From: Desulfosporosinus nitroreducens
Lineage (GTDB): Bacteria; Bacillota; Desulfitobacteriia; Desulfitobacteriales; Desulfitobacteriaceae
DNA length: 64,000 nucleotides
Direction: 5' to 3'
Assembly (NCBI RefSeq): GCF_023897015.1
Contig: NZ_JAMHFY010000008.1
Span: forward strand, 62,001 to 126,000
The notes under the pieces are model-generated. The model saw nothing but the letters and a program-made list of their open reading frames with translations. It was not told the DNA's origin and searched no databases. A program made the position numbers and the translations under genes. This document shows positions 2,570 to 20,692 of this stretch, one piece after another. How positions within the stretch are numbered: the stretch's first letter is position 1; each line of letters opens with the position of its first letter.

Positions 2570-5296
2570 TTGATTAAAAAACATGTCATTATTAACGGTG
2601 TCCCTCAGACATTGATAGTCGATGGTGAAGTGACCCTAGCAAATGTGTTGCGGGGACAACTGCACATGACCGGAACGAAAATTGGGTGCGGAAAAGCTCA
2701 ATGCGGTGCCTGTTCTGTCATTGTGGATGGAAAAGTCATCCGGTCTTGTGTTACAAAAATGAAACGAGTAGCCGATGATGCTCAGATTACTACGATTGAA
2801 GGCGTAGGTACCAAGAATAACTTACATCCCGTACAGCTGGCATGGATGGTCCATGGAGCTGCTCAATGCGGTTTCTGCAGTCCAGGATTTATTGTATCTG
2901 CTAAACAGCTCTTAGATGATAATACCAATCCTACAAGAGAAGACGTCCGCGACTGGTTCCAAAAACACAGAAATGCCTGCCGTTGCACAGGGTACAAACC
3001 CTTGGTTGACGCGGTTATGACTGCAGCCAAGTTGATTCGCGGCGAGATGAAGACCGAAGATCTATGGGAAAAACTGCCGTCCAGTGGTTCTATCTGGGGA
3101 AGCAATTACATTCGTCCATCCGCTTTGGCCAAGGTTACCGGTACTTGTGACTTTGGCGCAGATTTAGGGGTTAAAATGCCTTGTGGTACTCTGCAGTTGA
3201 AACTGGTTCAGGCCAAGGTTTCTCATGCCAATATTATATCTATCGATACCTCTGAAGCTGAAAAAATGCCTGGTGTATATAAAGTTATCACTCATAAAGA
3301 TGTCAAAGGCAAAAACCGGATTACCGGCTTAATCACCTTTCCGAATAACAAAGGGGATGGTTGGGACAGGCCGATCCTTTGCGACGAAAAAGTGTTCCAA
3401 TTTGGTGACGCCATCGCCATTGTAGCGGCCGATACCGCTGAGCATGCTCAAGCTGCAGTTGACAAAGTTAAGGTGGAGTTGGAAATTCTCCCTGCCTACA
3501 TGAGTGCCCCAGCAGCCATGGCAGACGACGCTATCGAGATTCATCCCGGAACTCCTAACGTTTATTGGGAAACCAAGGTGATTAAAGGCGAGGAAACAGC
3601 TCCTCTGATGGAAAAAGCAGATATAGTTGTTCAAGACGACTTTTATGTAGGACGCCAGCCCCACCTGCCCATCGAGCCTGACGTTGGTTTTGCCTTTATT
3701 GATGAAGAGGACCGCGTAGTGATTCATTCCAAAAGCATCGGCATTCATCTCCATCAGGCTATGATTGCCCCGGGGCTGGGACTGGAACTAGACAAATTGG
3801 TTATCGTACAAAATCCCTCTGGCGGTACCTTTGGTTATAAGTTCAGCCCAACCATAGAAGCCTTACTAGGGGTAGCTGCGTTGGCTACAGGTAAACCTGT
3901 ATTCTTGGAGTTTGACTACTATCAACAAATTACTTACACCGGGAAACGTTCACCGTTCTTTATCAATCTTAAATACGGGGCTACTAAAGAAGGTAAACTG
4001 GTTGCCATGGAAGCCGATTGGAGCTGCGATCATGGTCCGTATTCTGAGTTTGGTGATCTGGTTACCCTGCGGGGCAGCCAATTCATTGGCGCCGGTTATA
4101 TGATTCCTAATATTCGCAGCAATGGCCGAACTGTCTGCACAAATCATGCTTGGGGTTCGGCTTTCCGGGGTTACGGATCTCCGCAGAGCCTGTTCGCAAC
4201 CGAGGTATTGATGGATGAACTGGCCGAAAAACTAGGGATGGACCCCTTTGAGCTGCGTTACAAAAACGTTTACAGACCTGGTGATACTACTCCTACCGGC
4301 AGTGAGCCTGACGTACACAGTATGGTGGAAATAATGGATAAACTTAAGCCCCTCTATGATGCAGCTAAGAAAAAGGCCGAAGCTGAATCCACTGCCGACA
4401 AGAAACGCGGCGCAGGCATCTCTCTCGGCGTCTACGGTGCCGGTCTGGATAACCCCGACGGTTCAGAGGCTTGGGCTGATTATACTGAAACCGGTGTCAC
4501 AATTTTCAACGGTTGGGAAGATCACGGCCAAGGTGCGGACATGGGGACACTGGCTACTTCCCACGAGGCCTTGCTTCCCTTGGGAATTAAACCCGAACAA
4601 ATCAAATTGGTTATGAATGACACCTCTAAAGTCCCCGCCAGCGGACCTGCCGGTGGCAGCCGTTCGCAAGTAATGACCGGCAATGCCATCAAAATTGCTT
4701 GCGAAGAACTGTTAAAAGCAATTCAAAAACCCGATGGAACTTACCGGACCTATGCAGAACAGGTTGCAGCTGGGTTACCAACCCACTTTGTAGGCAAATA
4801 TAGCACTCCAGCCGGGTATAATGGTTGTGACCTTGAAACCGGACAAGGAGTCCCCTTCACCACTTATATGTATGCAGCGTTCCTCTCTGAAGTGGAAGTC
4901 GATGTCAAGACAGGTAAAACCAAGGTTCTTGGCATGAACGGAATATTTGATGTTGGCACCCTTGCTAATAAGCTAGTCGTTGACGGGCAAATGTTTGGCG
5001 GAATGGTACAAGGTATTGGCTTGGCCCTCAGCGAAGATTTCGAAGATCTTAAAAAGCATATTGATCTGGTTAGCTGCGGTTTGCCCTTCATTAAAGACGC
5101 ACCTGACAAACTTGTCGTCGATTATGTTATGACTCCAAGAGAACATGGTCCCTTTGGAGCTTCTGGTGCTGGTGAAGCACCGCTGACCTCTCCTCATGCT
5201 TCCATCATTAATGCAATTACAAACGCCTGCGGGGTAAGGATTACCAAGTTACCAGCCCTGCCTGAAAAAGTACTTGCGGGATTAAAGGCTCAGTAA
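2570..5296 (+). CDS. mop: Mop-type molybdenum aldehyde oxidoreductase (xanthine oxidase family)
   Basis: 908 residues from a TTG start behind AAAAGGAGAG. The length and sequence track the Desulfovibrio gigas aldehyde oxidoreductase (907 residues). The plant-type [2Fe-2S] domain has C40, C45, C48 and C60. The second [2Fe-2S] domain has C100, C103, C137 and C139. There is no FAD domain, as in Mop, and the molybdenum domain follows. The C-terminal GASGAGEAPLTSP motif carries the catalytic glutamate. The family oxidises aldehydes to acids using molybdopterin cytosine dinucleotide and passes electrons to an external acceptor. Twin-arginine features are absent, so it is cytoplasmic. It is the first gene of the sigma-54 operon, and the next gene is a likely electron partner. 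The substrate cannot be read from the sequence. Confidence 0.93.
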   Translation: MIKKHVIINGVPQTLIVDGEVTLANVLRGQLHMTGTKIGCGKAQCGACSVIVDGKVIRSCVTKMKRVADDAQITTIEGVGTKNNLHPVQLAWMVHGAAQCGFCSPGFIVSAKQLLDDNTNPTREDVRDWFQKHRNACRCTGYKPLVDAVMTAAKLIRGEMKTEDLWEKLPSSGSIWGSNYIRPSALAKVTGTCDFGADLGVKMPCGTLQLKLVQAKVSHANIISIDTSEAEKMPGVYKVITHKDVKGKNRITGLITFPNNKGDGWDRPILCDEKVFQFGDAIAIVAADTAEHAQAAVDKVKVELEILPAYMSAPAAMADDAIEIHPGTPNVYWETKVIKGEETAPLMEKADIVVQDDFYVGRQPHLPIEPDVGFAFIDEEDRVVIHSKSIGIHLHQAMIAPGLGLELDKLVIVQNPSGGTFGYKFSPTIEALLGVAALATGKPVFLEFDYYQQITYTGKRSPFFINLKYGATKEGKLVAMEADWSCDHGPYSEFGDLVTLRGSQFIGAGYMIPNIRSNGRTVCTNHAWGSAFRGYGSPQSLFATEVLMDELAEKLGMDPFELRYKNVYRPGDTTPTGSEPDVHSMVEIMDKLKPLYDAAKKKAEAESTADKKRGAGISLGVYGAGLDNPDGSEAWADYTETGVTIFNGWEDHGQGADMGTLATSHEALLPLGIKPEQIKLVMNDTSKVPASGPAGGSRSQVMTGNAIKIACEELLKAIQKPDGTYRTYAEQVAAGLPTHFVGKYSTPAGYNGCDLETGQGVPFTTYMYAAFLSEVEVDVKTGKTKVLGMNGIFDVGTLANKLVVDGQMFGGMVQGIGLALSEDFEDLKKHIDLVSCGLPFIKDAPDKLVVDYVMTPREHGPFGASGAGEAPLTSPHASIINAITNACGVRITKLPALPEKVLAGLKAQ

Positions 5297-5329: not shown

Positions 5330-7693
5330 TTGAACAAGTTTAGGTTCCCTGTGGTTACCCACACAGCAAATATTAAAGAAGTTGGTGCTGCTATGGATCA
5401 GGTTGAACTGAGAAGGCTAGAAAGTAAGTGCAGCCAAGAAAATCCTCCCGCTTGTACAGCTGGGTGTCCAATCCATGTAGATGTTCGTAAGCTGATGCAG
5501 GCCATTCAAAATCAAGACTGGAAAAGCGCCGCATCAATACTACAGCAGAAACAGCCCTTTCCGGGAATTATTAGCAGGATTTGTGACCATCCCTGTGAGG
5601 ATGTGTGTAAACGTAAAGATGTTGGAGCAACCGTAGCTATTTCTAACTTAGAAAAATTCTGTCTGGAAAACCATGCTCCCAAAATTGCCAATGTCGGAGC
5701 TGTTCCCCCTAAAAGCCAGACCGTTGCGGTGGTTGGCAGTGGGTTAAGAGGCCTGACTACAGCCTATGACCTAGCACGAAAAGGGTACATTGTTACGCTG
5801 TTTGAAAAATCAGATCGCTTGGGCGGAAACTTGTGGAAACATCCAGAGCAACAACTTCCAGCTCAGGTAATTACGAACGAACTTTCAGTTTTGAATCGTC
5901 CAAATGTGACAATTGAGCGTAATGCAGGAATAACCCGACAGGATTTGTCTCAACTAAAAGAACGGTTTGATGCTTTATATATTGGCTTTGCTGCACAATC
6001 TGAAGACGCCTTGGAACTGTTGGGTGAGAATAGCAGAATTGACCCGATAAGTTGCACTACGCCAATAGCAGGTGTATTTGCTGGTGGACAGCTTGGCAAT
6101 AATTCCCCAATCAATGCTGTTGCTGATGGCCGGAGAGGTGCAGTATCTATCGACAGGTACCTGCAAGGAGCCTCTCTAACTGCCTCCCGCGATGGCGAAG
6201 GGGCCTTCGAATCGAATCTATTCGTCAACCTGAACAAAATCCCATCCCTGCCTGCTGTACCCATGAGTCATGAATCCGGGGGTTACACTGGCGAAGAAGC
6301 TGTCCGGGAAGCCGGTAGGTGCTTAAATTGTCAATGCCTTGAATGTGTAAAAGCCTGCAAATATTTGGAGTCCTATGGTGGTTATCCCAAAAAATATTTG
6401 CGGGAAATATACAATAACGAATCTATCGTCATGGGCACACGCCACGCCAACAAGATGATTAATTCCTGCACCCAGTGTGGGTTGTGCGCTGAAGTATGTC
6501 CGAATGATCTAGACATGGGACAGGTTTGTCTTGCATCCCGGGAAAGTATGGTTAGGAGAGGGAAAATGCCACCGTCTGCCCATGATTTTGCCCTGCGGGA
6601 TATGGCTTTTAGTAACAGTGAACAATTTGCTTTGACTAGACATCAACCAGGGTTTGATTCCAGCAAATATGTTTTCTTTCCAGGCTGTCAATTGAGCGGC
6701 TCATCTCCGGAACATGTGGAAAAAGTATATGCCTATTTAACAGAACAGCTTGCCGGAGGAGTAGGGCTGATGTTGCGTTGCTGCGGCGCTCCTGCGCATT
6801 GGGGCGGTGATCAGGGACAGTTTCAAACCAGCTTTGAGGAGATGGTTGCGGAATGGGAGAGCTTGGGTAAACCGCAGCTGATTGTAGCCTGTTCTACCTG
6901 TCACAGTATATTTAGGGAAAAATTACCCGGAGTTGTTTCTCTTTGGGAATTAATAAAAGATATGGACTTACCCGTTCAAGGGGCCGGTACAAATTACGGG
7001 AAAGTAGCTGTACAGGATCCCTGTACCACTAGATATGAACAAGGAATACATGAAGCAGTTCGCCATATCTTGCTCAGGCTAGGTTGTGAAATTGAAGAAT
7101 TGCCTTATAGTAAAGAACTAACTAAGTGTTGCGGTTTTGGCGGCCTAACAGCCTTCGCCAATCCGGGACTTGCGCGGAAGATCGTTGAAAATAGGATAAA
7201 AGAAAGCACAGCGGACTATGTAGCCTACTGTGCCATGTGTAGAGATAGATTTGCTGCTCATGGTAAGCGTACATTACATTTATTAGATCTCATTTTTGCT
7301 GATGATCTGCAAAATGCTGCCACCAGACCTGATTCGGGATTTTCTCAACGGCATGAGCACCGGGCAAGACTAAAAAGAACGTTACTGCATAGATTCTGGC
7401 AAACGCCGCAGGAAAAGGAAAGGGGTTATAGGACTATAAAAATAATATGTAATGAAGAAATAAGTAAGCTTATGGAAGAAAGACTAATCTTGCTCGAAGA
7501 TGTTCAACAGGTAATTGAACATGCGGAAGGCACGGGAAGAAAATTTATCAATCCGGATAACGACAACTATTTAGCCTATTTTCGCCCTGCCAGAGTGACA
7601 TATTGGGTTGAATACCAACCTCAAGAGAATGGTTTTGTAGTCTTGAACTCATATAGCCACCGGATGGAAATTGTCGAGGAAGTGAAACCATGA
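5330..7693 (+). CDS. Fusion of GltD-like Fe-S/FAD module with HdrD-like CCG Fe-S module (DVU_1558-like)
   Basis: 787 residues, TTG start. Residues 34-111 are a GltD-type [4Fe-4S] entry domain (ACTAGCPIHVDV at 41-52, further Cys at 85, 89 and 93). Residues 131-280 hold an FAD fold with GSGLRGLTTAYDLARKG at 136-152, but the NAD(P)H Rossmann insert normally found in the GltD family is missing. Cys groups follow at 331-343 and 380-390 (SCTQCGLCAEVC). Two CCG domains then occupy about 448-640 (LRCCGAP, ACSTC, TKCCGFGG, YCAMC), as in heterodisulfide reductase HdrD. The last ~115 residues are unrecognised. It probably moves electrons between aldehyde oxidoreductase and a thiol/disulfide or quinone partner. 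Its stop overlaps the next start (ATGA). The role is inferred from order and domains. Confidence 0.8.
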   Translation: MNKFRFPVVTHTANIKEVGAAMDQVELRRLESKCSQENPPACTAGCPIHVDVRKLMQAIQNQDWKSAASILQQKQPFPGIISRICDHPCEDVCKRKDVGATVAISNLEKFCLENHAPKIANVGAVPPKSQTVAVVGSGLRGLTTAYDLARKGYIVTLFEKSDRLGGNLWKHPEQQLPAQVITNELSVLNRPNVTIERNAGITRQDLSQLKERFDALYIGFAAQSEDALELLGENSRIDPISCTTPIAGVFAGGQLGNNSPINAVADGRRGAVSIDRYLQGASLTASRDGEGAFESNLFVNLNKIPSLPAVPMSHESGGYTGEEAVREAGRCLNCQCLECVKACKYLESYGGYPKKYLREIYNNESIVMGTRHANKMINSCTQCGLCAEVCPNDLDMGQVCLASRESMVRRGKMPPSAHDFALRDMAFSNSEQFALTRHQPGFDSSKYVFFPGCQLSGSSPEHVEKVYAYLTEQLAGGVGLMLRCCGAPAHWGGDQGQFQTSFEEMVAEWESLGKPQLIVACSTCHSIFREKLPGVVSLWELIKDMDLPVQGAGTNYGKVAVQDPCTTRYEQGIHEAVRHILLRLGCEIEELPYSKELTKCCGFGGLTAFANPGLARKIVENRIKESTADYVAYCAMCRDRFAAHGKRTLHLLDLIFADDLQNAATRPDSGFSQRHEHRARLKRTLLHRFWQTPQEKERGYRTIKIICNEEISKLMEERLILLEDVQQVIEHAEGTGRKFINPDNDNYLAYFRPARVTYWVEYQPQENGFVVLNSYSHRMEIVEEVKP

Positions 7694-7902
7694 ATAAGAC
7701 AGATAATCTGCCGCCCAAACCCGTATGGAAGTGCGGAAAATGTGGTGGTGAACTAAAGCATGGTACGGTAAAAATAACCTATCTAGGAAATGATCTTAGA
7801 GTTGAAGAACTGAAATGCCTTAATTGCGGCTTGGTGTTGATCACCGAAGAGCTGGCTTTAGGCAAAATGTTTGAAGTAGAACAAAGCCTTGAGGATAAGT
7901 AG
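7690..7902 (+). CDS. Small zinc-ribbon/CxxC redox protein (DVU_1557-like)
   Basis: 70 residues. Two CxxC pairs (CGKCGG near residue 15, CLNCG near 43) are separated by a beta-rich stretch, giving a rubredoxin- or zinc-ribbon-like layout. Small proteins of this kind sit beside the aldehyde oxidoreductase/HdrD-like gene pair in other anaerobes and are named only as redox proteins. The ATG overlaps the stop of the previous gene, so translation is coupled. Function unknown; metal binding is an inference from the cysteines. Confidence 0.7.
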   Translation: MNKTDNLPPKPVWKCGKCGGELKHGTVKITYLGNDLRVEELKCLNCGLVLITEELALGKMFEVEQSLEDK

Positions 7903-7915
7903 AGGGGGGAGCAGA

Positions 7916-8362
7916 ATGGCAGTCGATGCCTTTCGCCTGTTTCAATTAGCCACTCAGGGATTCTGTTGTAGTCAGATTATGTTAATTCTCGGGTTAGATG
8001 AACAAGGAAAGGAAAACTCTGACTTAATTAAAGCAATGCAAGGGTTATGTGGTGGTATAGGCAGGTCGGGGAAAACCTGTGGTGCACTTACCGGGGGGGC
8101 ATGTTTAGTAGGATTGAACGCAGGGAAGGGGAGTCCCAGCGAGTTCAGCCACGCTAAAATTAACCGTATGATTAATGTCTTACTGGAGTGGTTTGAAGAA
8201 ACCCATGGCAGTATCAAATGCTCAGGAATTTTAGATCACTCTCTGGATGAGGGCAATGAGTATCCTGTACAATGCGGCAATATTGTTTCAACCACCTTTA
8301 GTAAGGTATATGAAATTTTAGCGGTCTATACCGAAGACCCTGAGTCGATGGACGAGGATTAA
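7916..8362 (+). CDS. C-GCAxxG-C-C family protein (DVU_1555-like)
   Basis: 148 residues from the ATG at 7916, chosen because AGAGGGGGGAG lies just before it; an in-frame upstream start at 7889 lies inside the previous gene and has no ribosome site. The family signature is visible: CC at 17-18, GLCGGIGRSGKTCGALTGG at 43-61 (the C-GCAxxG core), C63 and C102. This family is thought to bind a metal cluster or be redox-active and often accompanies molybdenum enzymes or electron-transfer genes. No reaction is established for it. Confidence 0.75.
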   Translation: MAVDAFRLFQLATQGFCCSQIMLILGLDEQGKENSDLIKAMQGLCGGIGRSGKTCGALTGGACLVGLNAGKGSPSEFSHAKINRMINVLLEWFEETHGSIKCSGILDHSLDEGNEYPVQCGNIVSTTFSKVYEILAVYTEDPESMDED

Positions 8363-8367
8363 AGACT

Positions 8368-9123
8368 ATGAAAAATGATACGTTTAAATTGTATGAGAGT
8401 GACCTGCTGAGTCAGACCACAGGGGTTACTTTGAGACCGGGCGGGTTTGCTTTAACCGACCTGGGAATCGGAAAATGTGACTTGCTCACGGGAGCACGGG
8501 TTCTGGATGTAGGATGCGGCAGCGGTGCAACGGTAGAACGTTTAGTTTCTCAGTATCAGCTCCAAGCTATAGGGTTGGATTCTTCAGAGGTATTGCTAGA
8601 GAGTGGAAAAAAGAGGAATCCGGACTTAAACCTGATACGAGGGCTGGGGGAAGACCTGCCCTTTCCAGTGAACCACATGGATGGAGTGTTGGCTGAATGT
8701 GCCTTGTCTGTGATGGAAGACCTGGATCAAGTCCTAAACGAAATTTTTAGGGTGCTTAAACCGAGGGGATGGTTGCTCGTAAATGATGTATATGCACGCA
8801 ATCCTGAGGGTCTCCAAGGGCTTCGGGAGCTCAAGATTGACTCTTGTATCCGAAGAGCGTTACCCAAGGAGCAATTCGTTAATAAACTTGTCGTACATGG
8901 GTTTAAGATCGTTGATTGGACGGATCATACGAACCTATTGACCCAGCTGACTGTCGATCTAATCATGGCCCATGGCTCTATGACCCAGTTTTGGCTAAAG
9001 ACCTCTTTAGGCTCATGCTCAGGCGCAGATTCGGTTGAGCCCAGCCTGGTTCAGGTTGCGTTAAAGCAGGCGAAGATGGGATATTTTCAACTAATCGCCC
9101 AAAAGGATGCTCACTGCAGTTAG
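8368..9123 (+). CDS. trsM: Class I SAM-dependent methyltransferase (TrsM/DVU_1556-like)
   Basis: 251 residues. SAM-binding motif I is VLDVGCGSGATVE near residues 46-58, followed by the acidic loop IGLDSSE and motif III RVLKPRGWLLV near 127. The C-terminal third is not recognised. Its position directly before the radical SAM gene (14-base gap) matches the methyltransferase that accompanies TrsS in similar clusters. The methyl acceptor is unknown; the name rests on family order and is less certain than the methyltransferase fold. Confidence 0.75.
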   Translation: MKNDTFKLYESDLLSQTTGVTLRPGGFALTDLGIGKCDLLTGARVLDVGCGSGATVERLVSQYQLQAIGLDSSEVLLESGKKRNPDLNLIRGLGEDLPFPVNHMDGVLAECALSVMEDLDQVLNEIFRVLKPRGWLLVNDVYARNPEGLQGLRELKIDSCIRRALPKEQFVNKLVVHGFKIVDWTDHTNLLTQLTVDLIMAHGSMTQFWLKTSLGSCSGADSVEPSLVQVALKQAKMGYFQLIAQKDAHCS

Positions 9124-9136
9124 AGAGGGATAGCAT

Positions 9137-10486
9137 ATGGACATAATGGATAAATGTTTAATTGCCACGGCCGAAAGTTCATGTACCGAGAGTTTGTGTC
9201 CGGAATGTTTGCAGAGGATTCCAGCGCAAAGAGTGGTTCAGGGAGAAAAGGTTTATATGGTGAAACAATGCCCTGAACACGGGGAGTATCGAACTCTGCT
9301 TTGGCGGGGGAACCCTCAATGGGATTTATGGGTCAGACCAACGATTCCAACCCCTCCCAAGGAGTGTTTTACCCAGGTTGAGAGAGGCTGTCCTTTTGAT
9401 TGCGGCTTATGTGAAGATCATTACAAGACGACTTGTACAGCCTTGATAGAAGTTACGCAGCGTTGTAATTTGAACTGCCGATTTTGTTTTGCTAATGCAG
9501 GAACGGAGCTCGACGAACCTTCCTTGGCCGTCATAGAAGGGTGGTACAAAAACGTCCTTGCTGCCAGCGGCCCTGTCAATATTCAGTTATCCGGCGGTGA
9601 GCCAACCCTCAGAAATGACTTGCCGGCAATACTGGAGATGGGAAGGACATTGGGTTTTAACTTCATCCAGCTTAACACGAATGGCTTGCGACTGGCGGAA
9701 GATCCTGGCTTTGTGGGCCGATTGAAGGAAGCTGGTCTTAGTTCCGTGTTTTTGCAATTTGACGGTACAGAGGATTCGATTTATCAGGCAATCAGGGGTC
9801 GCAGGCTCTTTGAGGTTAAAGCCAAAGCGATAGAGAACTGTGCCCAACATGGGATTGGGGTTGTGTTAGTACCTACGCTGATACCAGGGATAAACACTCA
9901 TAATATCGGAGGAATCATCAAGTTTGCCCTGGAAAATCTTCCTGCAGTCCGAGGGGTGCACTTTCAACCTGTCAGTTATTTTGGGAGAATTCCTAAAGAA
10001 CCCCTGGATCAAGACCGGATCACACTCCCCGAAGTCATTCAAGCCATCGAGGAACAGACGGATGGACTCATCAAAGCAGCCAACCTGAAACCTCACAATG
10101 GACGCTGTTCTTTTAGCGGCAACTTCACGAGACAACAGGATGGCAGCTTGAAAGCAATTATCAATAATTCGTGCTGTGCCGGACCAGAGCGAGCGGATGA
10201 ATTAGCCAGAAAAACACGAACCTTTGTGGCCAGGCAGTGGTCAGGAGCAGAAAAGCTAACAATTGAGTCTCCCGTTAATAACTCATGGGATAATCTAATC
10301 CAACAGCTAAAAACCTATGCTTTTTCCATCAGCGGTATGGCCTTTCAAGACGTGTGGAATCTGGATATTGACAGATTAAAGAATTGCTGCATACATGTGG
10401 TAAGCCCTGAAGGCAAGTTAATTCCTTTTTGCGCCTATAACCTCACGGATAAGTTTGGGCACTCAATTTATCGAAGGGAGAGATAG
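9137..10486 (+). CDS. trsS: Radical SAM protein of the MJ0619/Tes-like type (TrsS-like, Cys form)
   Basis: 449 residues. The N-terminal part carries CPECLQRIPAQ (21-31), CPEHGEY (45-51) and GCPFDCGLC (84-92), a cysteine-rich preface known from the MJ0619 pterin methylase and tetraether synthase relatives. The radical SAM cluster motif CNLNCRFC is at 110-117, followed by SGGEPTLR. The tail contains NCCIHVVSPEGKLIPFCAYN, also typical of that group. No in-frame TGA is present, so this is not a selenocysteine version, although related proteins can be. The reaction is unknown. Its companions (methyltransferase, AMP ligase, nucleotidyltransferase, molybdenum enzyme) suggest modification of a cofactor or small acid. 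Confidence 0.8.
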   Translation: MDIMDKCLIATAESSCTESLCPECLQRIPAQRVVQGEKVYMVKQCPEHGEYRTLLWRGNPQWDLWVRPTIPTPPKECFTQVERGCPFDCGLCEDHYKTTCTALIEVTQRCNLNCRFCFANAGTELDEPSLAVIEGWYKNVLAASGPVNIQLSGGEPTLRNDLPAILEMGRTLGFNFIQLNTNGLRLAEDPGFVGRLKEAGLSSVFLQFDGTEDSIYQAIRGRRLFEVKAKAIENCAQHGIGVVLVPTLIPGINTHNIGGIIKFALENLPAVRGVHFQPVSYFGRIPKEPLDQDRITLPEVIQAIEEQTDGLIKAANLKPHNGRCSFSGNFTRQQDGSLKAIINNSCCAGPERADELARKTRTFVARQWSGAEKLTIESPVNNSWDNLIQQLKTYAFSISGMAFQDVWNLDIDRLKNCCIHVVSPEGKLIPFCAYNLTDKFGHSIYRRER

Positions 10487-10488
10487 GC

Positions 10489-11832
10489 TTGGGCATCAAA
10501 ACCACCTCCCTGGAGGGTTGGATAAAGCACAAGATTACCGGAGAAAGTTCAGGCGTCTTAACCCGAAAGTTGATTGAGGACTATCAGTTGGGCAAACTTC
10601 AAGAAACACTCAACTTGGTAACCAGTAAAAGTCGATTTTATCAACGTTTGTACTCTGGAGTAGATTGTAAGCTGTCAAGTTTACAAGACATCTCAAAACT
10701 GCCCTTTACTTCAGCCGAAGATTTAAAGGATAATCCTCTCGATTTCTTGTGTGTTCCTCAAAATGAGATCGACAGGATCGTCACTTTGCAGAGTTCCGGT
10801 ACCACGGGTAAACCTAAACGTTTGTTCTTTACTGAGGCGGATCAAGAATTGACCATCGATTTTTTTCAACATGGCATGTTAACCTTGGTAAAGCCCGAGG
10901 ACAGGGTTTTGATAATGTTACCTGGAGATACACCGGGAAGTGTCGGGGATTTATTGCGTATAGGTTTAGAAAGAGCAGGAGCAACAGGGGTTGTCCATGG
11001 TCTGGTTACGAATCCAGAGTCCACCCTAGAACAAATTAAACGGGACAATATCAACGTATTAGTAGGGATACCTACTCAAGTATTGAGTTTAGCGAGGTAT
11101 AAAGATTCCCAGGGCAACACTCCCTCTTTGAGTTTGAGAAATGTTTTATTAAGTACAGACCATGTACCTTGGGCTATTGTGGAAGAACTCGAAAGGGCAT
11201 GGGGGTGTAAGGTGTTTAATCACTATGGCATGACTGAGATGGGGTTGGGAGGCGGACTGGAATGTGAGGGCTTCTGTGGTTACCACCTCAGAGAAGCAGA
11301 CCTCTTTATCGAAATTATCGATCCCAGTTCAGGGCTGCCGGCTGTGGATGGGCAACTGGGCGAGATAGTCTTTAGCACTTTAACCAGATCAGCTATGCCT
11401 TTAATTCGTTATCGTACGGGTGATATTTCTAGGTTTCTGATAGGCCCTTGTACCTGCCACACGGTACTAAAGCGACTGGAACGAATAAAGTCCAGAGAAA
11501 AGGTTTATCTGACTTCAGCAGATTTCTTAACTATGGCAGACTTTGATGAGGTTTTGTTTGCGCTTGATAACGTTCTTGATTTCGAGGTGTCCCTAACAAA
11601 GAGCCTGCTAGAAAAAGCAAACTACTTACAACTCGATATTCAGCTAAAGGGACCTGTTTCCTTAGAAGCGAAAAGAAATGTTCAACTGGCTTTAGATAAA
11701 ATCCCTGTACTAAAGGGTGCCAGACAGAGCGGCAGGTTGAGGGTGCTCTTTTATCTATTCTCAAGCTCTGAAGTGACAGTTAGAAAAAGTACAGCTAAAC
11801 GACAGATTCAAGACAAGAGAGGGAGTGCCTAA
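10489..11832 (+). CDS. AMP-dependent acyl-CoA ligase, phenylacetate-CoA ligase-like (DVU_1553-like)
   Basis: 447 residues from TTG at 10489, ribosome site GAAGGGAGAG. The AMP-binding motif SSGTTGKPK is near residue 104 and the adenylate-forming YGMTE motif near 250; RYRTGD follows near 305. These match the PaaK/adenylate-forming superfamily. Such enzymes activate a carboxylic acid with ATP to acyl-AMP, then usually to acyl-CoA. In this operon it could activate the acid made by the aldehyde oxidoreductase or a biosynthetic acid. The gene starts 2 bases after trsS. Substrate unknown. Confidence 0.82.
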   Translation: MGIKTTSLEGWIKHKITGESSGVLTRKLIEDYQLGKLQETLNLVTSKSRFYQRLYSGVDCKLSSLQDISKLPFTSAEDLKDNPLDFLCVPQNEIDRIVTLQSSGTTGKPKRLFFTEADQELTIDFFQHGMLTLVKPEDRVLIMLPGDTPGSVGDLLRIGLERAGATGVVHGLVTNPESTLEQIKRDNINVLVGIPTQVLSLARYKDSQGNTPSLSLRNVLLSTDHVPWAIVEELERAWGCKVFNHYGMTEMGLGGGLECEGFCGYHLREADLFIEIIDPSSGLPAVDGQLGEIVFSTLTRSAMPLIRYRTGDISRFLIGPCTCHTVLKRLERIKSREKVYLTSADFLTMADFDEVLFALDNVLDFEVSLTKSLLEKANYLQLDIQLKGPVSLEAKRNVQLALDKIPVLKGARQSGRLRVLFYLFSSSEVTVRKSTAKRQIQDKRGSA

Positions 11833-12985
11833 ATTGCTTGCTAAACCAGGTGAGGATTTCTTAGCAGCGATCATAGTTGCCGCAGGATACTCTTTTCGAA
11901 TGAAACGCTTTAAACCACTTTTATCGTTGGGGGGAGACACAGTCTTAGAGAAAGCTGTGAATAGTTTTCTGAAGAGCGGGGTTGAGGATATCCGAGTGGT
12001 GGTTGGGCATCGGGCCAATGAATTGTGTCCAGTCTTAGATAGATTAGGAGTACAGACCATTGTTAACCCCAATTTTTCGGAAGGAATGTTCTCCTCAGTG
12101 ACAGCAGGAGTTAAAAGCTTGTTACCAACAGTCAAAGGATTTTTCCTATTACCGGTCGATAATCCTATCGTGAACAGGGAGACTTTGGAAAAGCTTCAGA
12201 GCACGTTCTTCACAACGGAGTTCGGCATTATCTATCCAACTTATCAGGGAATGAGGGGACATCCCCCCTTAATTTCCAGCCGCTATGTGAACAAGGTAAT
12301 GTCTTGGGATAAACCGGGGGGAATGAGAGCTTTATTGGAACAGTATGAACATGATGCCATCAATGTTGAGGTTGATGATCCGGGTATTTTACTCGACATG
12401 GATACACCGGAGGATTACCGGCAGATGCTGAAGTACTGTGGTGATACCGATCCCCAAGTCCCCACAGAAGAAGAGTGTTATACAATCTTAAAAAATGCTA
12501 ACACGTCTGTAAAGGTGTTTAATCATTGCAAGCAGGTAGCTCAGTTAAGCAGTGCAATGGGAAGCCATTTAATCAGGTCTGGCAGTAATTTGGACCTCGA
12601 ATTAATCAGGGCAGCTGCACTGTTACATGACTTGGCCAAAGGTGAACCCCACCATGCCCAAGTTGGAGCCGAAATGCTTGTCAATTACCCAAAGGTAGCA
12701 GAAATTGTTGCAGAACATACGGATATTTGTCTGAACCCGGGTGATTCATCCATAACAGAAAAAGAAATCGTCTATTTGGCCGATAAGCTTGTCATAGATG
12801 ACCAGATTATTTCACTCCAGGCTAGATTTTCTGGCCCCGTAGAGCAGTATAAAAACGATCAAGAGGTAACGGAGAAAATTAAGCAACGCTTAAGTAACGC
12901 CGAAAGAATCCAGACAAGAATAGAACAAATTATTAAGATACCTTTACATGAAATAAGGAAGGTTGATCTAGGGGGACAAGGCTAA
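11825..12985 (+). CDS. MobA/MocA-like nucleotidyltransferase fused to an HD hydrolase domain (DVU_1551-like)
   Basis: 386 residues, GTG start overlapping the previous gene by 8 bases. Residues 14-200 are a nucleotidyltransferase: IIVAAGYSFRMKRFKPLL near 16, LLPVDNP near 107, DMDTPEDY near 189. Residues 230-350 are an HD domain with NHCKQVAQLSS, LLHDLAKG and an EHTD motif. MocA makes molybdopterin cytosine dinucleotide, the cofactor of Mop-type enzymes, and that fits the operon. The HD domain, a metal phosphohydrolase fold, has no known job here. The specific nucleotide is an inference. Confidence 0.8.
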   Translation: MPKLLAKPGEDFLAAIIVAAGYSFRMKRFKPLLSLGGDTVLEKAVNSFLKSGVEDIRVVVGHRANELCPVLDRLGVQTIVNPNFSEGMFSSVTAGVKSLLPTVKGFFLLPVDNPIVNRETLEKLQSTFFTTEFGIIYPTYQGMRGHPPLISSRYVNKVMSWDKPGGMRALLEQYEHDAINVEVDDPGILLDMDTPEDYRQMLKYCGDTDPQVPTEEECYTILKNANTSVKVFNHCKQVAQLSSAMGSHLIRSGSNLDLELIRAAALLHDLAKGEPHHAQVGAEMLVNYPKVAEIVAEHTDICLNPGDSSITEKEIVYLADKLVIDDQIISLQARFSGPVEQYKNDQEVTEKIKQRLSNAERIQTRIEQIIKIPLHEIRKVDLGGQG

Positions 12986-14097
12986 TGGAAAAGGAAATAT
13001 ACCAAGGGCTTAAAAAAGCGAGTGACAAATATTTGGATGTGGCTCTAATTACAATTATAAGTGTGCTGGGGTCAACTCCCCGTAAGCCTGGCGCTAAAAT
13101 GTTAGTGTTTGCTGACGGAACGACTGTGGGAACCATCGGCGGAGGATGTGGAGAAGCAGAGGGGCGGCGGGAGGCTCTTAATGTTTTAGCATCTCACGCT
13201 CCGAAAGTTCATTATTTGAATATGACCGCAGACATTGCCCAGGAGGAGGGAATGGTTTGTGGAGGAATCATGGGATTGTTCATTGAATATTTAGGTTCTC
13301 AGAGCCCAGTGGAACAGGTCACTCTCATGAAGGATTATCTGTCAGCTGTCAATGAAGCTGCAAATCCTGTTCTCGTAACGGTGATAGAGGCAACTGAAGG
13401 GCGATTAGCAGGAAAAAAAATGTTCGTTAAGGATAACGGGGAGGTAACAGGTGATCTGGGTTTAGAAGAACTCACGAGAGTGGGACTGGAGAGCATCAAA
13501 TTAGGGGGTAAACGGTGTCAGCCGCTCTTAGTTAGTTTAGATTCTGAGTTTGAGCCGTGTGATACCACCGTAAACAAAGCAACATTCCGTTTTTTGGTGG
13601 AGACCCCGACTACAGTTGTCCAATTGTTGATTTTAGGAGCAGGCCATATTGCACATCCCCTCGCCACCATGGCCAAAATCGTTGGCTATGAGGTTACAGT
13701 GGTCGATGATCGTCGATCTTTTGCCAATTCGAATCGTTTTCCTACAGCTGATAAGATCATATGTGATGATTTTGAACGTGCCTTAGATGAAATAACGATC
13801 AATCCGCAAACTTTTGTCGTCATTATTACTCGTGGGCATCGTTATGACAAAATGTGTCTGTGCAAAGTAATTAATCAGTCAGCCTCCTATATTGGCATGA
13901 TCGGCAGCCGGAAGAGGGTTAAAGCCTTGCTTGAAGAATTGGAGGAAGAAGGAATTTCCTGTGAAGCCTTGCAAAGGCTGTATTCACCAATCGGCCTGAA
14001 AATTGGGGCAGAAACTCCTGAGGAAATAGCCGTAAGCATTCTTAGCGAGCTGATTAAGGTTCAGCGGGAGTCGAATCAGAACGGTAAACTAAAATGA
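12985..14097 (+). CDS. xdhC: XdhC/CoxI family molybdenum-enzyme maturation factor (copy 1)
   Basis: 370 residues. N-terminal XdhC domain with VLGSTPRKPGAKM near residue 28, TIGGGCGEAE near 51 and EEGMVCGG near 88. The C-terminal Rossmann domain has LGAGHIAHPLA near 217. XdhC proteins bind the molybdenum cofactor, help its sulfuration and insert it into xanthine-oxidase-family enzymes. The start overlaps the previous stop (TAATG). A close paralogue lies at 17800-18897. Its place here makes Mop the likely client. Confidence 0.9.
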   Translation: MEKEIYQGLKKASDKYLDVALITIISVLGSTPRKPGAKMLVFADGTTVGTIGGGCGEAEGRREALNVLASHAPKVHYLNMTADIAQEEGMVCGGIMGLFIEYLGSQSPVEQVTLMKDYLSAVNEAANPVLVTVIEATEGRLAGKKMFVKDNGEVTGDLGLEELTRVGLESIKLGGKRCQPLLVSLDSEFEPCDTTVNKATFRFLVETPTTVVQLLILGAGHIAHPLATMAKIVGYEVTVVDDRRSFANSNRFPTADKIICDDFERALDEITINPQTFVVIITRGHRYDKMCLCKVINQSASYIGMIGSRKRVKALLEELEEEGISCEALQRLYSPIGLKIGAETPEEIAVSILSELIKVQRESNQNGKLK

Positions 14098-14109: not shown

Positions 14110-14733
14110 ATGGTTAGAAAGCTTATTTATTTAGTAAGACACGGAGATATCGGACTAGAAAAAGAGAAACGCTTTATTGGACAGTCTGATCTGCCGCTAA
14201 GTACCCTTGGTCGTGAACAAGCCATCCTATTGAAGAAAATATTTAGCCGAGTACCTATAGATAACATATATTGCAGTGATTTATTAAGAGCTCAACAAAC
14301 TGCAGAGATCATTGCCTCTGCCCACCCTATCATTCCTACTACTTGTGCGGAGTTGCGGGAATTGCATATGGGCGTTTGGGAGGGAAAATCCTTCGCCGAA
14401 ATTAAAGCTAAGTATCCTGAAGAATTTAAAGAACGTGGTAAGGATATCGTGAATTACCGTCCACCCAAGGGAGAAAGTTTTTCTGACTGCTACGGTAGAG
14501 TGAAGCCAGTCTTTGAATACCTTTCCGAATCCGTTGAAACGACAATTTTAATTGTTGGACATGCAGGGGTAAACAGAGTAATCTTATGCCATGTACTAGG
14601 GATACCTTTAGAAAATGTCTTTCGACTTGAACAAAATTATGGTTGTGTTAACTTAATCACCAAGGAGGGTTTAAAGAACCGATTGAAATATTTTAACTAT
14701 ATAATAAATCGGGATCTATACAGAATGGATTAA
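14110..14733 (+). CDS. Histidine phosphatase family protein
   Basis: 207 residues. The catalytic RHG motif is at about 10-12 (LVRHGD), GQSDLPLSTLGREQA follows, and the second histidine lies in VGHAGVNR near 150. The fold is shared by phosphoglycerate mutases and alpha-ribazole phosphatase (CobC). It ends the sigma-54 operon, 12 bases after xdhC, so a phosphate removal step in the same unknown pathway is plausible. The substrate cannot be read from sequence. Confidence 0.8.
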   Translation: MVRKLIYLVRHGDIGLEKEKRFIGQSDLPLSTLGREQAILLKKIFSRVPIDNIYCSDLLRAQQTAEIIASAHPIIPTTCAELRELHMGVWEGKSFAEIKAKYPEEFKERGKDIVNYRPPKGESFSDCYGRVKPVFEYLSESVETTILIVGHAGVNRVILCHVLGIPLENVFRLEQNYGCVNLITKEGLKNRLKYFNYIINRDLYRMD

Positions 14734-16512: not shown

Positions 16513-17535
16513 TTATTTTCCAAAGGAACAATGGGGATAGGTGCAGACCGGGCAGTCGAGACAAAGACCGCCACTTCCAAGTTTGACAATGTCGTGGCGT
16601 GTCAATCTCTCTCCCGTGAGCAATCTTGGAGCGACTAAATCAAAGGCCGTTGTCTTAGAATACATGACGCATCCAGGTAATCCCATAATGGGGACATCTC
16701 CCATATAGGCAAGCAGAAACATAGCACCAGGTAAAACAGGCGCACCATAAGTGATCAGTTCCGCTCCCATCTCTTTAATGGCTGTCGGGGTGACATCATC
16801 GGGATCGACAGACATACCGCCGCTAACTAGGATCATTTCTGCTCCCTTAGCGAGTTGATCACGAATGCTACCTTGTATCAGGGATACATCATCACTTGCA
16901 TAGGTTTGCTCTAAGACGGTTGAACCCCAATTTTCGACTTTTGAGCGCAGTACTGGACCGAATTTATCCTGAATTCGCCCGTGAAAAACTTCGCTGCCGG
17001 TTATCGTAATGCCGACCTTTGCAGGCTTTAGTGGCTTAACTTCCAAAATAGGAGTTGTAAATGTTTGGACGATTTCCTCTGCTTCGAGAATTACCTTCTC
17101 ATCAATCATTAGAGGAACAACACGGGTTCCCGCGACTTTGGCACCTTTTTTCACAGGGTAATGATTGTGAAGTGTGGAGAGAATGACCCCATCTAAGGTA
17201 TTCAAAGCTAAAATTCCGTCCACTGAAGAGTATAGAAGCCCATCGTGGGCAGCCATTAGGGTGATTTTCCCTTCTTTGGGCTCGTCAAGGATTAATCCGG
17301 AACCGGATACTGCGTGGGCGAGTCGCTCCGCGGCTTCATTCTCATGTATAAGGCCGGGCTTTTGATCCCAGACGTAAATATGTTCTTTGCCCATACTTAA
17401 GAGAACAGGGATATCCTCTTCACTTATGACATGTCCCTTGCGAAATCGAGGGCCTTTAATAACACCTGGGATAATTTGCGTCATGTCATGAATAAGAATG
17501 GCACCAACAGAATCACGCACTTTAATTTTTTCCAT
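16513..17535 (-). CDS. Molybdopterin-binding (MoeA/MogA-domain) protein with Cys-rich tail
   Basis: 340 residues; ATG at 17533-17535 behind GGAGG. The N-terminal half resembles the linker and substrate region of MoeA-like proteins. The C-terminal half carries the molybdopterin-binding fold: VGITITGSEVFHGRIQDKFGP near 173, LVSGGMSVDPDDVTP near 234 and MGLPGCVMYSKTTAFD near 284. The tail CLDCPVCTYPHC has four closely spaced cysteines, which standard MoeA lacks and which suggest an Fe-S or metal site. It is divergent from the second xdhC, so both probably act in molybdenum cofactor handling. Confidence 0.8.
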   Translation of the reverse strand: MEKIKVRDSVGAILIHDMTQIIPGVIKGPRFRKGHVISEEDIPVLLSMGKEHIYVWDQKPGLIHENEAAERLAHAVSGSGLILDEPKEGKITLMAAHDGLLYSSVDGILALNTLDGVILSTLHNHYPVKKGAKVAGTRVVPLMIDEKVILEAEEIVQTFTTPILEVKPLKPAKVGITITGSEVFHGRIQDKFGPVLRSKVENWGSTVLEQTYASDDVSLIQGSIRDQLAKGAEMILVSGGMSVDPDDVTPTAIKEMGAELITYGAPVLPGAMFLLAYMGDVPIMGLPGCVMYSKTTAFDLVAPRLLTGERLTRHDIVKLGSGGLCLDCPVCTYPHCSFGK

Positions 17536-17799: not shown

Positions 17800-18897
17800 A
17801 TGGATAAACAAGTGTATCTTGGACTAAAAAAAGTATTTGAACAAAACTTAGAAGCTGTCCTTATTACCGTAACCAGTGTACTGGGGTCGACACCTCGCAA
17901 GCCCGGGGCGAAAATGCTAGTTTTTGCGGATGGTACGACAGTTGGTACCATCGGTGGCGGATGTGGAGAGGCCGAGGCGAAACGGGAGGCTCTCAATGTT
18001 CTAACAAAATACGACTCTAAAACATATAGTTTGAATATGACCGCAGATATAGCCCAGGAGGAGGGGATGGTCTGCGGGGGTATTATGGAATTATTCATGG
18101 AGTATATAGGGACGCATACCCCCGTTGAAAATGCGGATCTTAATAAGGATTATCTTGCAGCTGTAGAGAGTCATAATCATCCGGTACTTGTAACTGTGAT
18201 CGAAGCGGCGGAAGAGTCATGGCTGGGAAATAAGCTTGTCATTAAGACTAATGGAGACGTTACGGGCGATCTAGGTAAAAAGGAACTAAATAATATTGGG
18301 TTTGAGAAAGGCAAAATAGGTAGCAGAAAATGTCAGCCATTCTTAATCTGTTTAGATTTTGAGTTCAATCCGTGTGAAAGCTCATCCCCAAAAGCAGCTT
18401 ACCGCTTACTGGTTGAGCCACCGACAACGGTTGTACAATTGTTGATTTTAGGCGCAGGACATATTGCTGTCCCGCTTGCAACAATGGCTAAAATAGTAGG
18501 GTATGAAGTAACTGTCGTCGATGACCGTCCATCCTTTGCCAATGTCAACCGATTTAGCACGGCTAATAAAGTTTTATGCGCCGACTTTGAAAGAGCCTTA
18601 GAGACTATTGATATAAATCCTCAAACATTTGTCGTGATTATTACCAGAGGGCATCGTTATGACAAGGTGTGTCTGAAGAAAGTAATTAATCACCCTGCCG
18701 CATATATCGGGATGATTGGCAGTCGAAAACGGGTTAAATCATTACTCGTTGACTTGGAAGAGGAGGGAGTAGCCAAAGAAGCCTTGCAAAAGCTGTATTC
18801 TCCTATAGGTCTGAAAATTGGTGCGGAAACTCCGGAAGAAATAGCTGTCAGCATTCTCAGTGAGTTGATTAAAGTTCAAAGGGGAATTGGAGAATAA
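17800..18897 (+). CDS. xdhC: XdhC/CoxI family molybdenum-enzyme maturation factor (copy 2)
   Basis: 365 residues; ATG behind AGAGGGAGAG. It shares long identical stretches with the protein of 12985-14097, for example VLGSTPRKPGAKM, TIGGGCGEAE, GAGHIAVPLATMAKI and the C-terminal KIGAETPEEIAVSILSEL. The paralogue is single-gene with its own sigma-A-type promoter and terminator, while copy 1 is in the sigma-54 operon. This suggests a housekeeping and an inducible version, or two different client enzymes. Confidence 0.9.
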   Translation: MDKQVYLGLKKVFEQNLEAVLITVTSVLGSTPRKPGAKMLVFADGTTVGTIGGGCGEAEAKREALNVLTKYDSKTYSLNMTADIAQEEGMVCGGIMELFMEYIGTHTPVENADLNKDYLAAVESHNHPVLVTVIEAAEESWLGNKLVIKTNGDVTGDLGKKELNNIGFEKGKIGSRKCQPFLICLDFEFNPCESSSPKAAYRLLVEPPTTVVQLLILGAGHIAVPLATMAKIVGYEVTVVDDRPSFANVNRFSTANKVLCADFERALETIDINPQTFVVIITRGHRYDKVCLKKVINHPAAYIGMIGSRKRVKSLLVDLEEEGVAKEALQKLYSPIGLKIGAETPEEIAVSILSELIKVQRGIGE

Positions 18898-19075: not shown

Positions 19076-19819
19076 TTAAAGCGAGAAATACGCGAGGAAA
19101 CGGTCAACCTCTTCTATATGGCTACTCTTTTGAAGTTCAGCTTTATGGCTATTCTTTAGAAGTTCAGAGGGAGGACCTTCTGCCAGGACTTGTCCATTAA
19201 GGAGAATCAAGGCTCTGCTTGTTAAATGTGCGATGTCCTTGAAATCATGACTAACTAAGACGGTCGAAGTTTGAGTAGATTTGAAAACCTTAGCCAGATC
19301 GATACGCAGTCCTTCTTTGGTGGGTGCATCCAGGGCTGAAAATGGTTCGTCCAGAAATAAAACATCAGGCTCTATAGCAAAAGCTCGTGCCAGACTAACA
19401 CGTTGGGCCTCTCCGCCTGAAAGGGAGCGTGCAGATTGTTTAGAAAGATGGATCACTCCAAACTGTTCCAACCAATAGTCCACCTTTTCTCGAATCCTTT
19501 CTTTGGGGAGGCCACGAATTTTGAGTCCCATGGCAACATTGTTAAAAACGCCAGTGTTTAATAAGAGAGATTCCTGAAAGACAATCGCAATTTTACGCCT
19601 AATCGTAAGCGGAACCGACTTTGGAACTGCTTGCCCTTGGAAATAGAGTTGTCCAGAAGTTGGAGATTCTAAAAAGGCGAGAATTTTCAACAAGCTGCTT
19701 TTGCCAGAACCATTGGGACCGATTAGCCCAACACATTCTCCGGGCAATAGATGAAAATGAAGAGGGTGTAAAATAGTTTTATGGTCCTGTATCCAGCTTA
19801 TCTCCTTCGCTTCAAGCAA
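19076..19819 (-). CDS. tupC: Tungstate ABC transporter ATP-binding protein
   Basis: 247 residues. Walker A GPNGSGKSS near 35, signature LSGGEAQ near 133 and Walker B VLFLDEPFSALD near 153 are intact. It is the last gene of a minus-strand tupA-tupB-tupC set and starts one base after tupB stops. It powers oxyanion uptake. The TupA partner has the tungstate-type motif, so tungstate is the likely substrate; molybdate is the alternative. Confidence 0.88.
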   Translation of the reverse strand: MLEAKEISWIQDHKTILHPLHFHLLPGECVGLIGPNGSGKSSLLKILAFLESPTSGQLYFQGQAVPKSVPLTIRRKIAIVFQESLLLNTGVFNNVAMGLKIRGLPKERIREKVDYWLEQFGVIHLSKQSARSLSGGEAQRVSLARAFAIEPDVLFLDEPFSALDAPTKEGLRIDLAKVFKSTQTSTVLVSHDFKDIAHLTSRALILLNGQVLAEGPPSELLKNSHKAELQKSSHIEEVDRFLAYFSL

Positions 19820-19820
19820 A

Positions 19821-20531
19821 CTAAGGCCCTCCTTGCTGTTTTTGTTGAAGTAAGGTTAAACCTAAGGTAGCTCCGTAAGCTAGCAAGCATAAGATAATAC
19901 TTAAGGCAATAGCAATGTCGAAGTTGCCTTTAGAGACTTCCAAGACTGTTGCAGTTGTTAAAACACGGGTCTGTCCTTCAATGTTTCCCCCTACTGCCAT
20001 AGAAGCTCCAATCTCTGATACAACAGCCCCAAACCCGGCGATAATGGCTGCAAGCAGAGAATAACGGACTTCTTTTAGAAGGAGCCATATATACTGCAGG
20101 CGAGTGGCACCTAGTGCTTGAATTTGCAGCCTGAGTTTGGGGTTGGTTTGTTGAAGAGCGGCACAGGTTAAGGCAGCGACAATGGGAGAGGCGATGATTG
20201 CCTGAGCGATAATTATGGCCGTTGGGGTATACATAATGTTCAAAAAGCCAAAGGGGCCTGAGCGCCAAAGGAAGATTGAGACCCAAAGTCCAACGACTAC
20301 CGGAGGCAAGCCCATCCCCGTATTCACGACACTTAAGACAAGTCGACGGCCCGGAAAGGGTTTCAGCGCTAGAAGGGTGCCAAATGGAATGCCGATAAGC
20401 AGGCTGATAAAAGTTCCGGTGCCCGATATTTTTAGGGTGAGGAGCGTGATGTCAATCACCTCAGGATCCCCGGTTAGGAGGAGGTGCAGGGCGGCTAAAA
20501 TTCCTTGCCAGATCATTTCCATACGTTGCAT
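19821..20531 (-). CDS. tupB: Tungstate ABC transporter permease
   Basis: 236 residues with about five or six hydrophobic segments and the permease EAA-type loop (LGATRLQYIWLLLKEVRYS near 140). The start at 20531 has GAAAGGGA before it; ATGs 3 and 5 codons later are alternatives. It matches the TupB/WtpB permease pattern between a TupA-type binding protein and an ATPase. A 161-base gap with a stem-loop separates it from tupA. Confidence 0.87.
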   Translation of the reverse strand: MQRMEMIWQGILAALHLLLTGDPEVIDITLLTLKISGTGTFISLLIGIPFGTLLALKPFPGRRLVLSVVNTGMGLPPVVVGLWVSIFLWRSGPFGFLNIMYTPTAIIIAQAIIASPIVAALTCAALQQTNPKLRLQIQALGATRLQYIWLLLKEVRYSLLAAIIAGFGAVVSEIGASMAVGGNIEGQTRVLTTATVLEVSKGNFDIAIALSIILCLLAYGATLGLTLLQQKQQGGP

Positions 20532-20560
20532 TTCCCTTTCGATGCAAGGATTAAAACGAA

Positions 20561-20589
20561 GTTCGAAGCTCGATGTGCGAGGTTCGAAC
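20561..20589 (-). other. Intercistronic stem-loop between tupA and tupB
   Basis: 12-base arms at 20561-20572 and 20578-20589 pair with one mismatch around a 5-base loop, and further TTCGA-containing segments follow to 20620. In the minus-strand transcript this stands between the binding-protein gene and the permease gene, a usual place for RNA processing or partial termination. Confidence 0.5.
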
Positions 20590-20692
20590 CTAGACTAAGA
20601 TCGCGAACTACGGCTTCGAGCCCCAAACTTCATGCTTACACTAATACGGATATTCAAGTAAACTATAGGACAGTATCTAGCTTAGATCCTAT

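Follow-up and report, generated by a model that had tools for sequence, protein, structure and literature searches.

TrsS, a Tes-fold radical SAM enzyme, in an aldehyde oxidoreductase cassette of Desulfosporosinus nitroreducens

The closest solved relative of the protein considered here is Tes, the archaeal tetraether lipid synthase, a radical SAM enzyme that works on lipids. Tes and MJ0619 are one protein, and the authors of the Tes structure, who were unable to corroborate pterin methylation by MJ0619, called that annotation incorrect on the grounds of a long, hydrophobic tunnel (PMC9433317). The same work notes that bacterial homologues exist in organisms without known tetraether chains (PMC9433317). 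Such bacterial homologues were counted by Zeng et al. using E < 1e-50 and identity > 20% (PMC8941075), and surveys report Tes homologues from Desulfobacterota (PMC11868695).

A bacterial family of this kind, the radical SAM (seleno)protein TrsS (NF045646), is already named and its gene cassette is known to curators, with curated NCBI models for nearly all of its genes. The paper defining TrsS is reportedly that of Haft and Tolstoy from 2025. A literature search on the D. vulgaris locus tags DVU1551-DVU1559 returned no functional data for TrsS, which gene order places at DVU_1554 in D. vulgaris Hildenborough. Here we describe a copy from the window, by which we mean the whole 64,000-nt stretch of D. 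nitroreducens DNA that was analysed. What is added is a near-perfect coupling of TrsS to one aldehyde oxidoreductase (AOR), a constraint from the D. gigas enzyme, the separation of TrsS modules from molybdenum-cofactor maturation genes, and a caution regarding lipid biomarkers.

Identity and metal sites of the window TrsS

The open reading frame at 9137..10486 (+) starts with ATG and encodes 449 aa. The protein scores 664.7 bits (E 4.8e-200) against the NCBIfam TrsS model NF045646, above the curated cut-off of 490, and 380.9 bits against the Tes/GDGT-MAS model NF045702, below the curated cut-off of 450. Pfam Radical_SAM and Zn_ribbon_HMPTM both match above their cut-offs. Among solved structures, the one closest in sequence to the window TrsS is that of Tes (7tol, E 9.6e-95). 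Furthermore, an AlphaFold model of the protein (pLDDT 88.6, pTM 0.91) aligns with Tes 7tom in VIA-align at Z 46.3 and an rmsd of 2.2 Å over 390 residues with 42% identity, and the fold ranked after Tes is MoaA, at Z 21.8. In trees TrsS forms a single clade (support 100/98) with the window copy inside it, nearest to Desulfosporosinus TrsS; Tes is represented there by one partial sequence, lacking chain residues 332-443, and the root placed on it is arbitrary. The closest named organism by TrsS is D. lacus (99% identical). There is next to no doubt that this ORF is TrsS and has the whole Tes fold. The earlier note had drawn the kinship with Tes from the letters of the DNA, and both the search and the predicted structure bear it out. 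It had also counted MJ0619 and Tes as two precedents, which are a single protein (PMC9433317), the one on which the class D (MJ0619-type) pterin methylases were founded.

The motifs listed in that note are all present, namely CPEC (C21/C24), CPEHGE (C45/H48), GCPFDCGLC (C85/C89/C92, then H95), CNLNCRFC (C110/C114/C117) and IPFCAYN (C432). We aligned 78 TrsS proteins with the available parts of Tes. Residues C21, C24, C45 and H48 (9197..9280, +) correspond to a rubredoxin-like Fe site and are invariant or nearly so, and identical in Tes. An N-terminal auxiliary [4Fe-4S] site is represented by C85, C89, C92 and H95 (9389..9421, +), and C110, C114 and C117 (9464..9487, +) make up the radical SAM CX3CX2C motif. 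The ligand roles at the rubredoxin-like and N-terminal sites are those described for Tes (PMC9433317), and the ligands of the three metal sites are identical between the two proteins.

The C-terminal auxiliary cluster region (10106..10432, +) includes C324, M401, C417/C418 and C432, with its cysteine ligands predicted from the alignments. M401 is the equivalent of Tes Met439, a labile ligand of the C-terminal cluster (PMC9433317); like this Met, C417 and C432 are shared with Tes in the alignment. Because C418 is frequently Ser, whereas C324 is conserved across TrsS and the majority of the remaining Tes-like clades, the likely cysteine ligands of this cluster are C324, C417 and C432.

Other positions distinguish TrsS from Tes. 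The invariant C100 and Q404, the nearly invariant H275 and, in most members, W407 are TrsS features. Tyr459 of Tes, which is strictly conserved across about 1,000 archaeal homologues (PMC9433317), is replaced by Val421 in the window TrsS and by Val or Ile in 43 of 48 TrsS. Between the barrel and the C-terminal cluster region TrsS is shorter than Tes by about 45 residues; these are missing from the stretch that matches the amphipathic helices of the second Tes lipid pocket, where the TrsS model predicts only two helices. Barrel positions near the SAM-binding residues are more polar in TrsS (S152, N180 and H275, versus A, A and N in the one Tes sequence compared), and S152 and N180 are found in other Tes-like clades as well.

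The window copy matches the TrsS family in score, cassette and clade position. It lacks the Cys or Sec that most members have ahead of C324, a residue that is optional for membership. This position is absent from the window lineage, and a selenoprotein reading of the window TrsS was therefore rejected. Among 77 homologues, an in-frame TGA at the variable position before C324 occurs in L088 only. A Sec codon in the TrsS of G657 was also rejected, as the reported TGA appears to be the terminal stop.

The AOR cassette and separable TrsS modules

In the window TrsS lies within an AOR cassette composed of DVU_1551-DVU_1559 families, all of whose genes run on the + strand. The first gene encodes a Mop-type molybdopterin-dependent AOR of 908 aa (2570..5296; NF045668, 1658.8 bits, cut-off 1100), the presumed client of the cassette. 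It is followed by DICL, an FAD/4Fe-4S dicluster/CCG-domain oxidoreductase with CCG and Fer4 domains (5330..7693; NF045663, 1075.8 bits, cut-off 530), a small CxxC..CxxC protein of the DVU_1557 family with 70 aa (7690..7902; NF045645, 85.1 bits, cut-off 60), a C-GCAxxG-C-C redox protein of the DVU_1555 family (7889..8362, likely start 7916; NF045669, 166.5 bits, cut-off 103) and a class I methyltransferase of the DVU_1556 family (8368..9123; NF045667, 235.4 bits, cut-off 155). Downstream of TrsS are a PaaK-like AMP-forming acid ligase of the DVU_1553 family (10489..11832; NF045666, 460.2 bits, cut-off 300), a MocA-like NTP transferase with an HD domain of the DVU_1551 family (11825..12985; NF045665, 445.8 bits, cut-off 315), an XdhC family AOR maturation factor (12985..14097; NF045664, 317.3 bits, below the cut-off of 350, with Pfam XdhC_C and XdhC_CoxI) and a cobC-like histidine phosphatase (14110..14733; TIGR03162, 180.6 bits, cut-off 162.9). 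A molybdopterin-binding-domain protein that is part of the cassette elsewhere (Pfam MoCF_biosynth) is encoded at 16513..17535 (-). The closest solved structures to the window AOR are those of D. gigas (1sij) and D. desulfuricans (1dgj), and its identity to D. gigas AOR is 67%.

The earlier note had placed TrsS beside a molybdopterin enzyme. The association holds at the level of the cassette and of co-occurrence (see below), but the two genes are not adjacent, and one of the four genes between them, that for the 70-aa protein, was not listed. This gene overlaps the DICL gene upstream at its stop codon and was missed by the ORF length filter.

Several further genes surround the AOR region. A second XdhC-type paralogue is found at 17800-18897, and both XdhC proteins score slightly under the curated cut-off. 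Flanking the region are a MoeA that carries a fused PBP-like domain (231-2138), a TupABC-type transporter (19076-21580) and a separate protein (21762-22679) homologous to the PBP-like C-terminal part of the MoeA fusion. Rfam and tRNA scans of the 64-kb window gave no matches.

The cassette recurs in 80 loci from other genomes, distributed among Bacillota, Desulfobacterota, Campylobacterota, Chloroflexota and others. The genes accompanying TrsS in these loci, many of which end at contig ends, are those for the ligase (78), the C-GCAxxG-C-C protein (76), the methyltransferase (72), DICL (70), AOR (67), XdhC (62), MocA (60), the histidine phosphatase (54) and the molybdopterin-binding-domain protein (44). 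The ligase is the most constant neighbour and is the very next gene to TrsS in 77 of the 80 loci, in agreement with the functional link to methyltransferase and ligase that the earlier note had drawn.

TrsS and AOR also occur together at the level of whole genomes. Among 99 Desulfovibrionaceae genomes, 58 carry both genes and 38 neither; one has TrsS alone (G017) and two have AOR alone, of which one has its AOR at a contig end (G043) and the other has an AOR that is only 45% identical (G068). In the class to which the window belongs, 83 genomes were compared: the 29 with TrsS are exactly those with AOR, and 54 have neither gene. When the two lineages are pooled, TrsS and AOR are together in 87 of 182 genomes and apart in 3. 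Fisher tests, uncorrected for shared ancestry, give p values of 8e-24 for Desulfovibrionaceae and 5e-23 for the window's class. In one genome (G169) both genes are present in four copies. The link between TrsS and Mop-type AOR is nearly certain, and one large bacterial Tes-like branch is now tied to a single well-characterised enzyme.

The AOR of D. gigas has been studied for decades, with flavodoxin as putative acceptor. The AOR encoded in genome G031 has the same sequence as the crystallised D. gigas enzyme (100% identity), and TrsS is encoded downstream of it in the same cassette. The structure of this AOR at 1.28 Å has well-defined pterin rings, and the cofactor is described as molybdopterin cytosine dinucleotide, MCD (PMC10223205). 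Since an AOR with ordinary MCD is encoded in a TrsS cassette, a stable modification of the pterin by TrsS is unlikely, though a labile or partial change is conceivable. The existing AOR structure therefore already speaks against a pterin substrate.

Some TrsS genes are found apart from AOR. In L086 (Sporomusa) and L135, genes for DICL, the DVU_1557 protein, the methyltransferase, TrsS and the ligase are accompanied by genes for a DUF5714 protein and a small lipoyl-domain protein (L086:5707-13870; L135:3952-10962). No AOR, MocA or XdhC is present within these stretches, and AOR genes are located elsewhere in both genomes. This module can thus stand apart from molybdenum-cofactor maturation genes. 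Conversely, L141 has AOR, XdhC and MocA without TrsS, and divergent TrsS genes in L136, L140 and L147 retain a ligase. These arrangements associate TrsS less with cofactor maturation than with ligase and electron-transfer genes, which further downgrades pterin modification. AOR cassettes in L144 and L145 have no ligase and methyltransferase nearby, and so these two genes may not be obligatory, which counts against the explanation favoured below.

Additional features were noted at the separate loci. Genes of the 2-hydroxyacyl-CoA dehydratase/double-cubane family lie beside the divergent TrsS and ligase in L136:3578-15404 and L140:8231-13316. L086 also carries a lipoate-protein ligase; a link of TrsS to a lipoyl carrier was dropped as too rare, being seen in L086 and L135. 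In L134:8808-10964 TrsS is fused to DUF5714 in a protein of 718 aa, encoded upstream of a TupBC-like ABC transporter.

Candidate roles of TrsS

The explanation that we tentatively favour, giving it as a whole a little under an even chance, is that TrsS carries out radical chemistry of the Tes type, with a small substrate that contains an acid group and is not a pterin, and that the product serves the electron-transfer chain of AOR. Tes-type chemistry is likely by analogy with the solved relative, and the electron-transfer role of the product is a guess from gene order. If TrsS operates as Tes does, it would cleave SAM and abstract hydrogen from an unactivated carbon, and the carbon radical would be captured at a sulfur of the C-terminal auxiliary cluster. 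A C-C bond would then be formed as in Tes, or a C-S bond as in other cluster-sulfur enzymes. The kind of neighbour genes suggests an acid-containing substrate, which would be small, more polar and other than a pterin, and would be handled jointly by TrsS, the PaaK-like ligase and the DVU_1556 methyltransferase. The alternative offered in the earlier note, in which the enzyme acts on an acid that the ligase has activated, is accordingly a better lead than its pterin reading. The product would serve an electron chain running from AOR through the DVU_1557 protein to DICL. Because several maturation-type genes are in the same cassette, TrsS may have a role in the maturation of AOR.

A bolder proposal is that TrsS, the methyltransferase and the PaaK-like ligase cooperate to build a small molecule with a dedicated role as redox carrier or prosthetic group, by Tes-type C-H activation and cluster-sulfur capture, and that Mop-type AORs, that of D. 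gigas included, need it to pass electrons to DICL. We consider this speculative and unlikely. Should the product of TrsS indeed serve AOR, in vitro work on the textbook D. gigas enzyme would have been done without its true partner.

Many radical SAM enzymes are maturases, and TrsS might likewise act on a peptide or protein, namely AOR, the C-GCAxxG-C-C protein or the DVU_1557 protein. The last of these is a candidate target, as it accompanies TrsS even where AOR is not nearby (L086, L135) and, in an alignment of 95 homologues, combines two CxxC knuckles common to all with a nearly invariant tail ending in LEDK (LAxGKM..E..LEDK). However, that tail may be a mere docking segment, the DVU_1557 protein was not found at the divergent-TrsS loci L136, L140 and L147, and the closest relative of TrsS works on lipids rather than peptides. 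A maturase function is for these reasons unlikely, though credible.

In a catabolic route, the acid formed by AOR would be activated by the ligase, and TrsS would then rearrange its carbon skeleton or couple it. Such a route would account for the PaaK-like ligase that nearly always adjoins TrsS, acids being the products of AOR. An iron alcohol dehydrogenase gene follows the cassette in the window and is present in 16 of the 80 loci, which speaks for such a route. Yet ligase and TrsS occur together without AOR near them in L086, L135, L136 and L140, and genes for a thiolase, dehydrogenase or mutase did not recur beside TrsS. We judge this route to be distinctly unlikely.

A role of TrsS in joining lipid or fatty acid tails, as the brGDGT literature proposes for bacterial Tes homologues (Zeng et al.; PMC8941075), is very improbable. 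The Tes fold extends over the whole length of TrsS, with metal ligands in common, and some members of another Tes-like clade lie near an Lgt-like gene; but TrsS has the AOR cassette as its surroundings where Tes has lipid genes, lacks about 45 residues of the post-barrel stretch, has Val in place of Tyr459, and falls below the Tes model cut-off (381 versus 450 bits). Lipid geochemists should note that TrsS nevertheless passes the loose filter of E < 1e-50 and identity > 20% for brGDGT candidates (PMC8941075).

The least probable role is alkylation of the molybdopterin or MCD of AOR by TrsS with the methyltransferase, the pterin substrate of the earlier note: TrsS is tightly linked to a molybdenum enzyme, and two Tes-like clades keep molybdenum company, but with MJ0619 being Tes and its methylation uncorroborated (PMC9433317) the precedent falls away, the D. 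gigas cofactor is ordinary despite the Trs-cassette gene (PMC10223205), and TrsS and the AOR maturation set each occur without the other (L086 and L135; L141).

Other Tes-like clades

The second clade with a molybdenum enzyme nearby (L125-L132, support 100/100) lies inside operons for a molybdopterin oxidoreductase, 4Fe-4S proteins and NrfD. Its members resemble TrsS in the ligands of the rubredoxin-like, N-terminal and SAM sites, but they form a separate clade and accompany a different class of molybdenum enzyme, and L125 scores 395 bits, below the TrsS cut-off. Neither a ligase nor a DVU_1556-type methyltransferase was found in the surroundings of L125-L132. These operons contain an additional, second molybdopterin oxidoreductase.

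On haloarchaeal and mycobacterial plasmids (L164, L165 and L167) a Tes-like gene is immediately followed by a methyltransferase nearest to the DVU_1556 family, at 130-136 bits. The pairs are located at L164:6893-9171, L165:6956-9324 and L167:5977-8140, and the two genes overlap in L164 and L165. These enzymes score below both curated cut-offs (TrsS and Tes) and have no AOR cassette nearby, and no annotated molybdenum genes were found near the pairs. The pairing of enzyme and methyltransferase therefore recurs without molybdenum genes annotated nearby, which likewise speaks against a pterin substrate. Finally, in L152 and L154 Tes-like genes are near a homologue of prolipoprotein diacylglyceryl transferase (Lgt), a possible lipid context.
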